64,000 nt of DNA, taken from positions 1-64,000 of the forward strand of contig JABCZO010000002.1 of the NCBI GenBank assembly GCA_013289615.1, read 5' to 3'. The notes below the pieces were generated by a model, which was not told the origin of the DNA, did no database searches, and was given only the letters and a program-made list of their open reading frames with translations. This document shows, in pieces, positions 9,048 to 56,661 of the stretch. The stretch comes from Gammaproteobacteria bacterium (GTDB lineage Bacteria > Pseudomonadota > Gammaproteobacteria > Steroidobacterales > Steroidobacteraceae). The first letter of the stretch is position 1; every line of letters begins with the position of its first letter. The translations under genes and the position numbers were made by a program.

Positions 9048-9695
9048 ATGACCGACCCCCAAGCCGCGCTCGAGCCTAGGCGTCATTCGCCGCTTCTTGC
9101 AGGACACCGCGTGAGCGTTTATCCCAGCGCGCAGTTCCTCTTCAGTGCGGCCGCCGCCGCCCAGTTTCCCGCTGACAGGGGCGCGGAGGTCGCGATCGCC
9201 GGGCGCTCCAACGCCGGCAAATCCAGCGCAATCAACGCCATCACGGCCCGCAACGCGCTCGCACGCACCAGCAAAATGCCCGGCCGCACGCGATTGCTGA
9301 ATTTCTTCCAGCTGGCAGACGGCAAGAGGCTGGTGGACCTGCCGGGCTATGGTTTTGCCGAGGGGCCGCCGCCCGAACGCGATTCCTGGGCGCGGCTGAT
9401 CGAGGCGCTGGCGCAGCGGGCATGCCTGAAGGGACTGCTGCTGGTGGTGGATGCGCGTCGCGGTCTGCTGCCCGCCGACCTGCAACTGCTGGATTGGGCG
9501 GAAGGGATGACACGCCCGGTGCATGTGCTGCTGTCCAAAGCCGACCAGCTCAAGCGTAACGAGGCGCGCGTGCTGCTGGCGCAATCGCAGGCTACCCTTG
9601 CGGCTCGCGCGTCGGTGCAGCTGTTCTCGGCACGCGCCGGGGTGGGACTGGACGAGGCCCGGGGCACGATCGATGCCTGGCTGAAAAGTGCCTGA
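9048..9695 (+). CDS. engB: EngB/YsxC, ribosome-biogenesis GTP-binding protein
   Basis: 215 aa from ATG 9048; a GTG at 9111 with a weak GGA site is an alternative start. The G1 loop GRSNAGKSS, G3 DLPGYGFAE and G4 LSKADQL with the switch motif PGRTRLLNFF define the TrmE-Era-EngA-EngB-Septin family member EngB, an essential GTPase in 50S subunit assembly. The frame is open back to 8211, but that part is antisense to cytochrome c4 and is not used. Confidence 0.95.
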   Translation: MTDPQAALEPRRHSPLLAGHRVSVYPSAQFLFSAAAAAQFPADRGAEVAIAGRSNAGKSSAINAITARNALARTSKMPGRTRLLNFFQLADGKRLVDLPGYGFAEGPPPERDSWARLIEALAQRACLKGLLLVVDARRGLLPADLQLLDWAEGMTRPVHVLLSKADQLKRNEARVLLAQSQATLAARASVQLFSARAGVGLDEARGTIDAWLKSA

Positions 9696-9703
9696 AAAGA
9701 AAA

Positions 9704-9743
9704 GGCCCCGGTAGTCCAGATTAGGGGAGGGACTGCCGGGGCC
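9704..9743 (-). terminator. Rho-independent terminator (minus strand)
   Basis: GGCCCCGGTAGTCC at 9704-9717 pairs with GGACTGCCGGGGCC at 9730-9743, with one wobble/mismatch. On the minus strand the stem is followed by TTTTCTTTTC; on the plus strand there is no T run. So it ends transcripts arriving from the right, and lies just past the engB stop on the other side. Confidence 0.8.
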
Positions 9744-9862
9744 AGAGCAACCCGGCGCGGGTCTCTACGCACCGGATTCTTGCCCGCTTTAGGGAGGGAA
9801 GCGGGGAGTGCAGCGCACTCGTAAAGTTGGAGGCATCGGAACGCCAGAAGTTTCGTACCCTC
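9704..9862 (-). ncRNA. Candidate structured sRNA with C-rich hairpin loops
   Basis: Between the terminator and the outer-membrane protein gene, the minus strand can fold into four consecutive hairpins: 9819-9807 (AGTGC/GCACT), 9805-9783 (CCCGCTT/AAGCGGG with loop CCCTCCCTA), 9775-9752 (CCGGTGCG/CGCGCCGG), and the terminator with a CTCCCCTAATCT loop. An AT-rich segment (9869-9880) could be a -10 region. No coding frame accounts for it. It may instead be a processed 3' UTR of the upstream gene. The two exposed CUCCC-type loops could pair with Shine-Dalgarno sequences. The 5' end is a guess. Confidence 0.45.
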
Positions 9863-9920
9863 GAGTGAATTTTATTTAATGTGGAATCAAGACTTTAGGT
9901 TCCACCGCGTAGCGCCGCCG

Positions 9921-10474: not shown

Positions 10475-13336
10475 CTAGTGTGCCTGGTCCCAATTCAAGC
10501 CGCTGCCGACTTCGACCCGCAGCGGCACTGCAAGTTGCGCCGCGCCGCTCATGCGGGCGCGCACTTCGCGCCCCGCCTGTTCGAGGAAGCCCTCGGCCAC
10601 CTCCAGCACCAGCTCATCGTGCACCTGCATCAGCAGCTTGGCCGGCACCTCGGGGCGCTGGCACCAGGCATCGATCGTGATCATCGCGCGCTTGATGATG
10701 TCGGCCGCCGTACCCTGCATCGGCGCATTGATGGCGCTGCGCTCGGCGTACTGCTGCAGCTGCCGGTTACGCGAACGGATCTCGGGCAGGTACAGCCGTC
10801 GGCCGAACACGGTCTCGACGTAGCCGTCGCGGCGCGCCTGCTCGCGGGTGGCGTCCATGTAGCGCCGTACGCCCGGATAGCGTGCAAAGTACAGGTCGAC
10901 GTAACTTTGCGCCGCGCTGCGTGCCACCCCCAACTGACGCGCCAGCCCAAAGGCGGACATTCCGTAGATCAACCCGAAGTTGATCGCCTTGGCAGAGCGG
11001 CGCTGATCTGCCGACACCTGCTCGAGAGCGACGCCGAACACTTCCGCCGCGGTGGCCTGATGGATGTCGCGATCCTCGGCGAAGGCGCGCAGCAGTCCTT
11101 CATCGCCCGACAGGTGCGCCATGATGCGCAATTCAATCTGCGAATAGTCGGCAGCGAGCAGCCGCTGGCCGGGCGCGGCGATGAATGCCTGTCGAATGCG
11201 GCGTCCCTCGGGGCTGCGGATCGGTATGTTCTGCAGATTGGGGTCGGTCGATGACAGCCGGCCGGTGGCGGCGACGGCCTGGTGGTAGGAGGTATGCACC
11301 CGGCCGGTGTCCGGATTGATCTGCTCGGGCAGTCGCTCGGTATAGGTCGAGCGCAGCTTGGCAAGACCGCGATACTCGAGAATCAGCCTCGGCAGCGGGT
11401 AGTCGGCCGCGAGTTCCTCGAGCACGTCCTCGGCGGTCGACGGCGTTCCGCTCGGCGTCTTGCGCATCACCGGCAGTCCGAGCCGCTCGAACAGTATCTG
11501 CTGCAGCTGCTTGGGCGACTCGAGATTGAACGGCGCGCCGGCCTCGCTATGCGCCAGCGCCTCGATCTCGCGCAGCCGCAATGCGATCTCGCCGCTCTGC
11601 GCATGCAGCATGGCGCGATCGATCAGCACGCCGTGACGCTCCATGCGCTGCAGTACCGGCACCAGCGGCTGCTCGATCTCCTGGTACACCCGCGCCAGTG
11701 CCGGCAGCTGTTCGAGCCGCGGCCACAGCACGCGATGCAGCCGCAGCGTGACATCGGCGTCCTCGGCGGCGTATTCCGCGGCCTTGTCGACGCTGACCTG
11801 GTTGAAAGTGATCTGCTTGGCGCCCTTGCCGGCGACATCCTCGAAATGAATCGTGCGCATGCCCAGCAGATGCGCCGCCATCGAATCCATGTCGTGCCGC
11901 GTCGCGGTGCTGTTGAGCACGTACGACTCCAGCATCGTGTCGTGGCGCTGGCCGCGCAACTGCACGCCATGATTCTGGAGCACGTGAATGTCGAATTTGA
12001 GGTGCTGACCGACCTTGCCGTGGGCCGGGTCTTCGAGCAGCGGGCGCAACGCCTCGAGCACCCGGGTGCGATCGAGCTGGGGAGGTGCGCCGGCATAGTC
12101 ATGTGCCAGCGGCACATAGGCCGCATGGCCGGGCTCGATGCAGAACGACACGCCGACGATGCTGGTCCTCATGTAGTCGAGACTGGAGGTCTCGGTGTCG
12201 AACGCAAACAGCTCCGCGCCCGCGAGCGCATCGATCCAGCGCGACAGCGTCTCCCAGTCCATCACGGTCTCGTAGCGCCGCGCGACGCTTGCCAGTGCCG
12301 CCGCTGCCGCATCGGCCGGCTGCGGCAGATCGATGGGCGCCATCGTCGTGTTCGCCTCCGCGCCGGCGGCGCTGGCCGCGGGTTGCGAGGCGAGCAGCAG
12401 CGCGGCGACCGGCTCGGCGCCGTCGCCGCCGGTAGCGCTGGCGGCAGCGGCGACAGCGGTGGCAGCGGTGGCAGCGGTGGCCTCCAGTTGCTGCAGCAGC
12501 GAGCGCAGCTCGAGCCGACGATACAGCGCGCGCAGCCGCGCGGTGTCGGCCGCGCGCCGTACCAGTCCGCCCGTTTCGAGTGGCAGTTCCAGCTCGCAGC
12601 TGATGGTGGCCAGCCGCCGCGACAGCGCCAGCGTAGCAAGTCCGGCGCGCAGGTTGTCGCCCACCTTGCCTTCGATTTCCGCGGCGTGGGCGAGCAGCAC
12701 ATCCAGCGTGCCGTACTTATCGAGCCATTTGGCAGCCGTCTTCGGGCCGACCTTGTCGATGCCGGGAATGTTGTCCGAGCTGTCGCCAACCAGGGCCAGG
12801 TAATCGATGATCTGTTCCGGAAACACGTCGAACTTGGCCTTCACCCCGGCGCGATCGAGCACCGTGTTGCTCATGGTGTTCACCAGCGTGATGTGCTCGT
12901 TCACCAGCTGCGCCATATCCTTGTCGCCGGTGGATATCAGCACCCGCTGACCGGCGCTGGCGGCCCGGCAGGCCAGCGTGCCGATCACGTCATCGGCTTC
13001 CACGCCGCCGATGCGCAACACCGGCAGGCCGAGCGCCTCGACCGCCTCGAGCAACGGTTCGGTTTGTGCACGCAGGTCATCCGGCATCGGCGCTCGATTG
13101 GATTTGTACTCGGCGAACAGCTCGTCGCGGAAAGTCTTGCCCGGCGCATCGAACACCACCGCGATGTGCGGCGGGTCGAACTCGCGCAGGAACTTCAGCA
13201 GCATCGACAGCACGCCGTGCACGGCGCCGGTCGGCTGTCCGGCCGAATTGGTCAGTGGCGGCAGCGCGTGAAAGGCGCGGTACAGGTATGACGAACCGTC
13301 GATCAGTACCAGGTCAGGTCGCGTCGGCAGGGGCAT
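10475..13336 (-). CDS. polA: DNA polymerase I
   Basis: 953 aa from ATG 13336 (MPLPTRPDLVLIDGSSYLYRA). The domains are a 5'-3' flap exonuclease (about 1-290: FDAPGKTFRDELFAEYK, GVEADDVIGTLA, GDKDMAQLV), a 3'-5' proofreading domain with the DxE motif (FAFDTETSSLD) and an A-family polymerase with motif A DYSQIELRIMAHLSGD (D about 729), motif B RRSAKAINFGLIYG and motif C VHDELVLEV. All catalytic acids are present. An Ala-rich linker between the exonuclease domains is encoded by a small repeat (GGCAGCGGT units, about 12452-12480). It acts in lagging-strand processing and repair. Confidence 0.97.
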   Translation of the reverse strand: MPLPTRPDLVLIDGSSYLYRAFHALPPLTNSAGQPTGAVHGVLSMLLKFLREFDPPHIAVVFDAPGKTFRDELFAEYKSNRAPMPDDLRAQTEPLLEAVEALGLPVLRIGGVEADDVIGTLACRAASAGQRVLISTGDKDMAQLVNEHITLVNTMSNTVLDRAGVKAKFDVFPEQIIDYLALVGDSSDNIPGIDKVGPKTAAKWLDKYGTLDVLLAHAAEIEGKVGDNLRAGLATLALSRRLATISCELELPLETGGLVRRAADTARLRALYRRLELRSLLQQLEATAATAATAVAAAASATGGDGAEPVAALLLASQPAASAAGAEANTTMAPIDLPQPADAAAAALASVARRYETVMDWETLSRWIDALAGAELFAFDTETSSLDYMRTSIVGVSFCIEPGHAAYVPLAHDYAGAPPQLDRTRVLEALRPLLEDPAHGKVGQHLKFDIHVLQNHGVQLRGQRHDTMLESYVLNSTATRHDMDSMAAHLLGMRTIHFEDVAGKGAKQITFNQVSVDKAAEYAAEDADVTLRLHRVLWPRLEQLPALARVYQEIEQPLVPVLQRMERHGVLIDRAMLHAQSGEIALRLREIEALAHSEAGAPFNLESPKQLQQILFERLGLPVMRKTPSGTPSTAEDVLEELAADYPLPRLILEYRGLAKLRSTYTERLPEQINPDTGRVHTSYHQAVAATGRLSSTDPNLQNIPIRSPEGRRIRQAFIAAPGQRLLAADYSQIELRIMAHLSGDEGLLRAFAEDRDIHQATAAEVFGVALEQVSADQRRSAKAINFGLIYGMSAFGLARQLGVARSAAQSYVDLYFARYPGVRRYMDATREQARRDGYVETVFGRRLYLPEIRSRNRQLQQYAERSAINAPMQGTAADIIKRAMITIDAWCQRPEVPAKLLMQVHDELVLEVAEGFLEQAGREVRARMSGAAQLAVPLRVEVGSGLNWDQAH

Positions 13337-13385
13337 AGGCGCGCACGATAAGCCAGCCGCCGCCGCCACGCACGCCGGTCCGGCG

Positions 13386-54209: not shown

Positions 54210-54277
54210 GGCGGTGGGCGCGGATAAGGCTCTCGCTGCTGGTACAATTATTCGCTTAGTGGGGCGGAGGTGATGTG

Positions 54278-55039
54278 ATGAGAACCGCAGGAATTTGTCT
54301 GGTGGCGATCGTTCTGGGCACGCTGGGGCTGGCGGGCTGCAGCCGTGAGAGCGCGGATTGGAAAGCCGCGAGCGCGGCGGACAGCGCGGCGGCCTATCAG
54401 CAGTTCCTGCAGCAGCATCCCAAGAGTGCCAATGCGGCCCAGGCGCAGGCGCGTATTGCGCAGATAGCCGACGATCGCGACTGGCAGGCGGCCGCCGCCG
54501 CCGACACCCGCGATGCCTACGGGCACTACGTGGCCCAGCACGCAGATGGCAAATGGGCGCAGGAAGCTCGCATCCGGATCGAGAACTTTGCCCAATCGGG
54601 CACCGCCAGCGGCTCGACTTCCACGGTGACGGTCGCCTCGCCGCCCCCCGCCTCAGCGTCAATGGCGGCGAAGCCTGCGAGCGGCCGAGCGGCCGCAAAT
54701 GCCGCGGCGAAACCAGCTGCCGCCGGCGGCAGCAGCAAGGTCGCGAGCGTGTCGGAGCGCGGCCATTTCGTGCAACTGGGCGCCTTCCACAGCAAGGCAC
54801 GGGCGGAATCGGAGTGGAAAAAGCTCTCGAGTAAGTACCCGACCGAATTGCAGTCGCTCAAGCCGCACTACGTGGCGGGCAAGTCCAAGAGCGGCCCGGT
54901 CTACAAGCTGCGCGTGGGCATGTCCTCGGCAAGCGATGCCAGGGGCTTATGTGCAACGCTCAAGAAGCACTTCCAGGTGTGCGTGCCGGTGACGGCCGCA
55001 GGCCGCAGCGCGTCAGGTCTTGGTCAGCGATTGACGTGA
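54278..55039 (+). CDS. SPOR-domain lipoprotein
   Basis: 253 aa from ATG 54278 with AGGTGA upstream; TACAAT at about 54243-54248 could be its -10. Lipobox GTLGLAGC, then DWKAASAADSAAAYQQFLQQHPKSANAAQAQARI (a TPR-like pair repeated at DWQAAAAADTRDAYGHYVAQH), an Ala/Ser linker and a C-terminal SPOR domain (HFVQLGAFHSKARAESEWKKL...YKLRVG). SPOR binds denuded peptidoglycan at septa. It is divergent from bactofilin. Confidence 0.88.
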   Translation: MRTAGICLVAIVLGTLGLAGCSRESADWKAASAADSAAAYQQFLQQHPKSANAAQAQARIAQIADDRDWQAAAAADTRDAYGHYVAQHADGKWAQEARIRIENFAQSGTASGSTSTVTVASPPPASASMAAKPASGRAAANAAAKPAAAGGSSKVASVSERGHFVQLGAFHSKARAESEWKKLSSKYPTELQSLKPHYVAGKSKSGPVYKLRVGMSSASDARGLCATLKKHFQVCVPVTAAGRSASGLGQRLT

Positions 55040-55110
55040 ATTGGCAGCCGAACAGCGCCGCTTTGCTGACGCTTTAATTTAACTTGTTGATTTATATGAT
55101 CTTGTACTAT

Positions 55111-55126
55111 TGGCATAGGGTTTGCT
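55111..55126 (+). promoter_or_regulatory. Sigma-54 (RpoN) -24/-12 promoter
   Basis: TGGCATAGGGTTTGCT: GG of the -24 (55112-55113) and GC of the -12 (55124-55125) are 12 nt apart, the exact RpoN spacing. An RpoN transcript would start near 55137, the first base of the hairpin below. No enhancer-binding protein gene is in the window. Confidence 0.7.
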
Positions 55127-55136
55127 TTGTCATGCT

Positions 55137-55227
55137 GGTAAGGTTTTCCCCTAACCTTTGCGGACAACGCTCCCCGATGTTCGCTCTTAGGCGCCGCAGC
55201 GCTCCCCGTGCTGCGGCGCTCTTCTTT
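55137..55227 (+). ncRNA. Predicted RpoN-dependent sRNA with three hairpins
   Basis: From the predicted start at 55137 to the terminator about 91 nt can fold into three hairpins: GGTAAGG/CCTAACC (55137-55156, one mismatch), GCGGACA/TGTTCGC (55160-55184) and GCGCCGCAGC/GCTGCGGCGC (55191-55219). Loops 2 and 3 each display CGCTCCCCG, and loop 1 is TTTTCC. C-rich loops of this sort can block Shine-Dalgarno sites. The region has no coding frame and lies between a SPOR gene and an M16 gene. No known sRNA is recognised. Confidence 0.65.
55191..55227 (+). terminator. Rho-independent terminator of the sRNA
   Basis: Perfect 10-bp stem GCGCCGCAGC/GCTGCGGCGC with a 9-nt loop (GCTCCCCGT), followed by TCTTCTTT. 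It would end the predicted sRNA before the M16 gene, so that gene needs its own promoter or read-through. Confidence 0.8.
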
Positions 55228-55269
55228 GGCGGCCTCGCCCCCATCCAGCTCTAGATGGAACCCGACGAC

Positions 55270-56661
55270 ATGCGTGGACTGAAATGGGTCGGCGGTGCGC
55301 TCGCGTCGGTGGCGGTGGGTTCAGCGACGCTGGCCGCGCCGGCGGCGCGCTCGTTTGCCGATGCGGCGGCGGTGGTGCGCACCACCACGCTCGCCAACGG
55401 CATGCAGATCGTGGTCTGGCCGGACCACAACATCCCGAACGTTGCGCTCTACAACTGGGTGCACGTCGGCAGCCGCAATGAAGGCACCGGCACCACCGGA
55501 CTGGCGCACTTCTTCGAGCACATGATGTTCAACGGGACCTCGACCCACGCACACGGCGACTTCGATCGGCTGATGGAGGCGCAGGGGGCCAGCAACAATG
55601 CCTACACCTCCCAGGATGTCACCGTCTACCAGGACTGGTTCCCGAGCTCGGCGCTGGAGCTGGTGTTCGACCTGGAGAGCGATCGGATCGCCAACCTCGC
55701 GTTCGTGCCCGACGTGGTCGAGAACGAGCGCAAGGTGGTCTATTCGGAACGCCGGCTGCGCATCGAGGACAGCAATGCGGCGCTGCTCGAGGAGCAGGTG
55801 CAGGCCACGGCCTTCCTGGCTCATCCCTACCGCATCCCGACCATCGGCTGGCCGTCGGATATCCAGTCCTGGACCATGGCCGACCTGCAGAATTTCTATC
55901 ACCGCAATTACGCGCCCAACAACTGCACGCTGATTCTGGTGGGCGCGGTCGACCCTGCGCAGGTGTTCGCATTGGCACAGAAATATTTTGGCCCGATCGC
56001 GCAGCGCGATCCGCCGCCGCCAGTGCGCACGCGCGAGCCCGAGCAGCTTGGGGAGCGGCGGCTGGTGCTCGAGCGCCCCGGGCAGAATCCGCTGCTGCAC
56101 TACGCCTATCACGCGATCCCGGCGGCCGACCCGCGCGAGCCGGCACTCAATATCCTGCAGACCATCCTGACCGGCGGTCACGCCGCACGGCTGCACCGCG
56201 CGCTGGTGGAGGAGAAGAAGCTCGCGGTCGCGATCGACGGCGGCTGGTCGGAAGGCTTCGATGCCAATGTGTTCGTCATTCACGCCACGCTGCCTGCCGG
56301 CGGCTCGGTGAGCGATCTGGAACAGGCCCTGGATGCCGAGCTCGCGCATGTCGTCAAGGACGGCGTAACCGATCAGGAGCTGCGCCGGGCGAAGAACCTG
56401 GTCGCCGCGGATTTCTGGCGCGGGGTGCAGACCATCAACGGCAAGGCGCGGCTGCTCGGGGAATACGCGGTCATGCACGGCGACTACCGGCTGCTGTTTG
56501 CCGCGCCCGACGCCTACGAGCGCGTCACGCGCGAGGACGTGGCCAGTATCGCTCGCCAGGTGTTCAATGCGGACAAGCGCACCGTGGGCGTGCTGGTGCC
56601 GACGCCAGGCGGGAATTCCCATGGCAATGCCGGTGCTCACCCCGACGCGGGGATGCACTGA
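55270..56661 (+). CDS. M16-family zinc peptidase, catalytic subunit
   Basis: 463 aa from ATG 55270 (ATG 55255 has no ribosome site; both are weak). Signal peptide (GALASVAVGSATLAAPAA), then inverse zinc motif HFFEHMMFN with the third ligand in ENERKVVYSERR, and a second M16 domain. Such periplasmic peptidases degrade or process peptides. It overlaps its partner gene by 1 nt (TGATG). Confidence 0.9.
   Translation: MRGLKWVGGALASVAVGSATLAAPAARSFADAAAVVRTTTLANGMQIVVWPDHNIPNVALYNWVHVGSRNEGTGTTGLAHFFEHMMFNGTSTHAHGDFDRLMEAQGASNNAYTSQDVTVYQDWFPSSALELVFDLESDRIANLAFVPDVVENERKVVYSERRLRIEDSNAALLEEQVQATAFLAHPYRIPTIGWPSDIQSWTMADLQNFYHRNYAPNNCTLILVGAVDPAQVFALAQKYFGPIAQRDPPPPVRTREPEQLGERRLVLERPGQNPLLHYAYHAIPAADPREPALNILQTILTGGHAARLHRALVEEKKLAVAIDGGWSEGFDANVFVIHATLPAGGSVSDLEQALDAELAHVVKDGVTDQELRRAKNLVAADFWRGVQTINGKARLLGEYAVMHGDYRLLFAAPDAYERVTREDVASIARQVFNADKRTVGVLVPTPGGNSHGNAGAHPDAGMH

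Follow-up and report, generated by a model that had tools for sequence, protein, structure and literature searches.

Between the genes of a SPOR-domain protein and an M16 peptidase, the window (the whole 64,000-nucleotide stretch analysed here) contains a short gap that an earlier note, made from the letters alone, had read as a sigma-54 promoter followed by a small noncoding RNA. The question raised by this locus is whether the gap encodes a genuine regulatory RNA and, if so, what turns it on, what it acts on and where it came from. The features concerned are as follows.

54275–55039, plus strand: SPOR-domain protein gene, upstream neighbour (Pfam SPOR, 47.6 bits)
55023–55045, plus strand: enhancer-like half-sites GTC-N7-GAC-N7-GGC (GTC-N7-GAC-N7-GTC in relatives)
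55080–55092, plus strand: IHF-like site, the reverse of WATCAANNNNTTR, 31 bases upstream of the -24 element
55111–55125, plus strand: sigma-54 promoter TGGCAT-N5-TTGC (-24/-12), sequence TGGCATAGGGTTTGC
55137–55228, plus strand: predicted small RNA gene, its start taken from the promoter and its end from the terminator
55140–55158, plus strand: hairpin 1, loop UUCCCC(U), in the consensus fold
55160–55184, plus strand: hairpin 2, GCGRACAA..UCCCC..UGUUCGC
55190–55220, plus strand: hairpin 3, the intrinsic terminator stem, loop CUCCCC, T-rich tail to 55228
55255–56661, plus strand: M16 peptidase gene, downstream neighbour

The region 55137–55230 was predicted to fold into these three hairpins at -43.9 kcal/mol (z -4.6), a value equalled by none of 200 shuffles, and the three-hairpin structure claimed in the earlier note was thus confirmed. 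The canonical distance to the -12 C places the start at 55137, as had been proposed; hairpin 1, said to begin exactly there, begins at 55140 in the consensus fold. The RNA from this start to the end of the terminator is ~92 nt long. A single terminator was found, with 13 pairs at 55190–55220 and the tail CTTCTTTGGC (shuffle mean 0.6), and it is good rather than perfect, as it had been called, because its T tract is interrupted. The sequence CGCTCCCCG does occur twice, at 55168–55176 and again at 55200–55208, as expected of a motif repeated in loops 2 and 3, but loop 1 carries TTCCCC, so that the C-rich motif is present in three loops (UCCCC in each) and not in two. The reported absence of a coding frame held: no plus-strand frame of at least 25 aa with a stop was found from the promoter to 60 bases beyond hairpin 2, and no frame of at least 60 aa on either strand overlapped the RNA unit. 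As for the promoter, the claimed element with exact spacing is present, but a -24/-12 match alone is within chance in a window of this size (0.47 expected, and seen in 39 of 100 window shuffles), and its significance therefore comes from conservation.

When 59 relatives and the window's own genome (60 in all) were searched at the DNA level with blastn, five of the genomes matched strongly (the own genome, G004, G006, G010 and G011), whereas the matches in G005, G009 and G013 covered the terminator region alone and were rejected as homologues. A model built from the five strong sequences (R1) recovered the RNA in 68 of 200 family genomes at E ≤ 0.1, in 46 at E ≤ 1e-3 and in 36 at E ≤ 1e-4, its E-values being rough and a search across so many genomes running stricter filters. 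Among the 15 genomes of the window's genus, R1 gave five strong matches, including the own genome, one weak match (G013) and none in the other nine. In two of this genus, G001 and G008, the M16 frame directly adjoins the SPOR stop (L065, about 1450–1460; L066, about 2850–2860), and the small RNA and its promoter are accordingly absent. A SPOR-like protein was recognised by eye 5' of the RNA also in L003, L004, L006 and L168; in the first three the RNA again lies between the SPOR-like gene and an M16 peptidase gene, as judged by eye, and in L168 the downstream neighbour is not an M16 peptidase gene.

A pattern of hairpin 2, scanned against 84,980 species genomes, returned 50 loci, all in records titled as metagenome-assembled genomes, of which 47 fit by context. 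By record title, nine of the 50 belong to Steroidobacteraceae and three to unrelated groups, and the rest are labelled Gammaproteobacteria, Proteobacteria or Pseudomonadota. The three unrelated ones (L134, L145 and L152, titled Thermoplasmata, Bacteroidetes and Opitutaceae) were discarded as chance matches, having no promoter in 300 bases and no visible terminator. Among the terminator-only blastn matches rejected above, L007 and L010 resembled coding sequence by eye, and L008 was judged by eye alone.

In an alignment of 47 sequences, hairpin 2 was paired in every cell and six of its seven pairs were invariant; for 45 of these sequences, however, both arms had been prescribed by the search pattern, which makes the invariance of the arms a matter of construction. 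The arms were also kept, with single-letter exceptions, at the pattern-free loci found by R1 (16 and 15 rows, the window being in both), a support that is itself biased by the preference of R1 for similar sequence. Evidence of another kind comes from the terminator stem: four of its nine pairs showed double-sided changes in the 47 sequences, and over the whole structure such changes amounted to 24 cells, where shuffles gave 8.3 and sliding the structure along the alignment gave no more than 7. The five g14 rows had terminator loops that were not C-rich. Within the aligned set, hairpin 1 with a UUCCCC loop was confined to the window's genus, and the short g18 versions of the RNA begin a few bases 5' of hairpin 2. 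Conservation of loops and stems, which the earlier note had named as the refuting test, held for hairpin 2 and the terminator and, for hairpin 1, within the window's genus, and ten of the 15 same-genus genomes lacked a strong match; the constant loop core in the relatives is UCCCC and not the longer repeated motif proposed before. Judged by comparison with the relatives, this is a real and conserved small RNA family of Steroidobacteraceae, a family name that rests on record titles. A GGGGA stretch after the terminator was considered as a built-in target and dropped, since GGGGA 3' of the terminator was not enriched (it occurs in 7 of 46 tails, with 4.7 expected).

The promoter was conserved together with the RNA. 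An exact TGGCAY-N5-TTGC was present within 300 bases upstream in 45 of 51 rows (the 50 scan loci plus the window), against 0.02 in single-base shuffles, and in all 44 context-fitting loci with 300 bases upstream; the six rows without it were the three chance matches and three loci whose sequence ends 95–220 bases upstream. The distance from the promoter end to hairpin 2 ranged from 15 to 238 bases, so that the 5' part of the RNA can vary freely. Further upstream, half-sites spaced 10 bp were counted in 38 of the 51 rows (the 13 left out being the six without a promoter and seven that were too short). The right-hand pair, GAC-N7-GTC, occurred in 37 of these 38 rows against 0.77 in shuffles, and all three half-sites, GTC-N7-GAC-N7-GTC, in 20 against 0.02; in the window the third half-site is degenerate by one base, leaving two of the three intact. 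In 44 of 45 rows, the best IHF-like match, scored with WATCAANNNNTTR, which we take to be the IHF consensus, started 30–32 bases upstream of the -24 element, with at least eight of nine positions matched in 29 (0.67 in shuffles) and all nine in eight (0.04 in shuffles). The promoter, half-sites, IHF-like site and terminator constitute independent evidence, because none of them is part of the hairpin-2 scan pattern. Sequence conservation demonstrates a complete predicted enhancer-dependent promoter, composed of the -24/-12 element, the IHF-like site and the GTC/GAC array, in front of a noncoding RNA, and the comparison with relatives supports the earlier view of a putative sigma-54-driven, terminator-ended, noncoding RNA with C-rich loops.

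The combined enhancer-promoter pattern was found exactly once in 20 of 22 genomes, which had been picked for carrying the small RNA, and always at the small RNA, against 0 of 22 for a backward control. The strict pattern was absent from the window's own genome (G000) and from G004. In 32 further genomes it occurred in 12, namely in five of seven with a strong small RNA match and in seven of 25 without, and three g4 genomes had two sites each. Across the order, the pattern was present in 52 of 296 genomes (33 of the window's family and 19 of other families; two in the backward control), some of which carry two or three sites.

Sigma-54 activator domain matches numbered eight in G000 and six in G132, of which six and five, respectively, were examined (L208 gave no 330-aa frame, and L211 and L215 were outside the examined set). 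Proteins resembling NtrC, PilR and GlrR were recognised in both genomes, the PilR-like protein being named by no NCBIfam model. In NCBIfam scans of ten regulators, NtrC exceeded its cut-off, and GlrR was the best match by far at 573 and 605 bits, below its cut-off of 763. NtrC and PilR are expected to serve several promoters, and the once-per-genome site thus argues against both. A GlrR match was present in 30 of the 36 genomes with a strong small RNA match and in 87 of the 164 others (Fisher p 7e-4), in a comparison where the genomes are related rather than independent and many are incomplete; the other six of the 36, including G258 (97% complete), yielded no GlrR match at the cut used. The GlrR-like gene of the own genome (L213, contig C33) is preceded, by eye, by lipoprotein and histidine kinase genes, a neighbourhood that matches the E. 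coli order qseE-qseG-qseF given in PMC6075780. According to the same paper, E. coli QseF together with IHF drives the small RNA gene glmY from a sigma-54 promoter. The E. coli QseF sites are described as TGTN12ACA (PMC6075780) or TGTCN10GACA (PMC8745638), whereas the sites found here are GAC-N7-GTC, of different spacing and without the TGTN12ACA consensus. Because of this difference in spacing, GlrR is a candidate regulator by elimination with about an even chance of being the right one. In E. coli, the GlrR/QseF signal is linked to the state of the cell envelope.

Taking these data together, we consider it probable that the locus encodes a stand-alone, trans-acting small RNA of ~92 nt that would be made on demand through an enhancer-binding protein (most likely GlrR), IHF and sigma-54, and would repress mRNAs through its UCCCC loops. 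The half-sites would be bound by the enhancer-binding protein of a two-component system, with GlrR (QseF) as the likeliest candidate, and IHF would bend the DNA, the sigma-54 polymerase being opened only under the regulator's signal. The unpaired UCCCC loops of hairpin 2 and the terminator hairpin would then be exposed on the RNA and may pair with G-rich sequence in or close to ribosome-binding sites, by which a set of mRNAs would be repressed. Pairing with GGGGA-type ribosome-binding sites is plausible by the precedent of sX13, an RNA of Xanthomonadaceae that requires its C-rich loops and G-rich target motifs near start codons (PMC3771888).

The same promoter was also found in front of other products. 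Nine of the fifteen sites from the 32-genome set and four new order-wide sites were inspected. Four of them (L231, L229, L227 and L220), located at the M16 locus in two genomes of g4 and also in g3 and g23, precede RNAs that lack hairpin 2 and whose terminators still have loops of the UUCCCC or CUCCCC type. At other g4 and g17 sites, as well as in families f6 and f10, what follows the promoter is a frame of ~85 aa with 13 invariant residues in eight sequences and the motif ..TGCFRRGxPIIDPVTRExLGYEME.., for which no Pfam or NCBIfam match was found in the five sequences scanned. These ~85-aa frames, which lie mostly directly behind the sigma-54 enhancer-promoter, include the following, among others.

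L226, 1225–1464: ~85-aa frame
L230, 1629–1865: ~85-aa frame
L225, 1220–1465: ~85-aa frame
L236, 1629–1877: ~85-aa frame
L244, 1188–1463: ~85-aa frame

A profile of this protein matched 36 of the 296 order genomes, none of them of g1, g10, g14 or g18. With E ≤ 1e-10, 20 of 26 matches lay directly downstream of an exact enhancer-promoter site, and so did 12 of 18 when the eight profile-building sequences were removed. The 3' ends of seven of these genes showed a C-rich-loop terminator in three cases (L236, L239 and L225) and none in four (L226, L230, L224 and L244), and at L232 (f4), a counter-example, the terminator that comes after the enhancer and promoter has no C-rich loop. A separate conserved frame of 60–69 aa (MSTRTLT..VDARLARA..) lies between the promoter and hairpin 2 at g10- and g14-type loci (L126, L133, L136, L144, L160, L169, L172 and L173), and homology between it and the ~85-aa protein was not established (hhalign probability 0.7%). 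No frame of at least 60 aa was found behind the promoter in 37 of the 44 promoter-bearing scan loci.

These observations bear on an alternative in which the RNA is a leftover sigma-54 transcript of a small-protein mRNA, its hairpins being merely the 3' end and a stabiliser. The position of the ~85-aa gene under the same enhancer-promoter in genera g4 and g17 and in other families, and the C-rich-loop terminators at three of seven of its 3' ends, favour this alternative, but the R1 loci keep hairpin 2 and its UCCCC over several genera while the 5' part varies. A relic would also be expected to decay, and yet the R1 loci retain the full enhancer promoter, an argument weakened by the preference of R1 for similar sequence; on balance, we regard a leftover transcript as unlikely. 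The occurrence of the promoter on the ~85-aa protein gene, sometimes with a C-rich terminator, suggests that the RNA may descend from an mRNA 3' end. Going further, we tentatively envisage a private circuit, which we would rate somewhat below probable, in which, in many species, a single target promoter per genome can be recognised for a GlrR-like regulator, and in which the product of this promoter, once a small-protein mRNA that ended in a C-rich terminator, became a stand-alone regulator with C-rich loops, the promoter itself being unchanged. If this were true, a small RNA would have been caught emerging from the 3' end of an mRNA. We regard the possible link to the small-protein mRNA as the most interesting lead. 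The series that runs from the mRNA of the small protein, ending in a C-rich terminator, to frame-less RNA behind the same promoter would make it directly testable whether regulatory RNAs originate at mRNA 3' ends.

GlnZ is an example of an RpoN-dependent 3'UTR small RNA. Small RNAs of this kind (PMC9731577) share with the small-protein versions seen here a sigma-54-controlled RNA tied to an mRNA 3' end; the RNA of the window differs from them in having its own promoter and in being frame-less (at least 60 aa) at those 37 scan loci.

The promoter logic also brings in GlmY of Enterobacteriaceae (QseEF/GlrKR, sigma-54, IHF), which, according to PMC6075780, likewise is a small RNA gene with upstream half-sites, IHF and a sigma-54 promoter; by sequence match, an IHF site lies between enhancer and promoter here as well. 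In contrast with GlmY, the present RNA has a different half-site spacing and C-rich loops, its gene (contig C2) is not beside the qseEGF-like operon (C33), and Rfam scans of the window and of the RNA unit returned no GlmY or GlmZ. Since GlmY acts by binding the protein RapZ, action by protein binding rather than mRNA pairing has to be weighed, and besides the shared promoter logic it could account for the stem of hairpin 2 being kept along with the C run. The missing GlmY/GlmZ match and the nature of the shared unpaired element, a C run typical of pairing loops, argue against protein binding, which we hold to be distinctly improbable. For other systems, the accessible literature on PrsR offered no usable enhancer motif, and the authors describing ncS25 found no sigma-54 motif upstream of it.

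The best Rfam match was sX13 (RF02232), with 30.6 bits against a gathering cut-off of 50 (E 4e-4 in a 401-base search), so that the earlier statement that no known small RNA is recognised was too strong and has to allow for this weak match. The two RNAs are alike in length (about 100 nt for sX13), in three stable stems with apical C-rich loops, by prediction in our case, in an intrinsic terminator and in the lack of a frame. Unlike the present RNA, which lies between SPOR and M16 genes behind an enhancer-dependent sigma-54 promoter, sX13 is, according to PMC3771888, always 3' of polA in its hosts and constitutively expressed, with changes under some stresses, and that paper never mentions rpoN. 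In the window, polA is at about 10478–13345 on the minus strand, 42 kb from the RNA, and the polA adjacency of sX13 is therefore lacking. That the RNA is an sX13 orthologue relocated from polA is very unlikely, for despite the best Rfam score, the end-to-end alignment and the three C-rich-loop stems, the aligned positions are mostly C runs and paired positions, the cut-off is reached by none of 296 genomes of the order, and the gap between polA and engB has a C-rich candidate of its own. Membership in sX13 was rejected on the sub-cut-off score, the location away from polA and that other candidate. No published RNA of the same kind was found for Steroidobacteraceae or among sigma-54-linked C-rich small RNAs in the literature covered, to which subscription journals mostly do not belong. 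The RNA represents a new family, sX13-like in architecture and not filed as sX13, in which two known designs, sigma-54 enhancer control and C-rich loops, are newly combined in one molecule. Steroidobacteraceae, represented here by metagenome-assembled records alone, thereby gain a small RNA family with a defined promoter, and the data suggest that GlrR-type systems may drive small RNAs outside enterobacteria.

C-rich loops and an intrinsic terminator are also features of ErsA, anti-hemB and the C-rich RNA of the polA-engB gap, which belong to another locus, and the window holds one of these separately. This candidate, at about 9696–9823 on the minus strand between polA and an engB-like GTPase gene, scored 31.0 bits with sX13 and 31.1 with anti-hemB, with a fold z of -3.5 for 9690–9880, and look-alikes were seen by eye in L032, L034, L036 and L038. 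Elsewhere in the same genome, a weak sX13 match (27.9 bits), seemingly intergenic, was found at L062:1906–2012 on the minus strand (G000:C20), and a c-di-GMP-I riboswitch (75.6 bits) at L063:6457–6546 on the minus strand (G000:C16).
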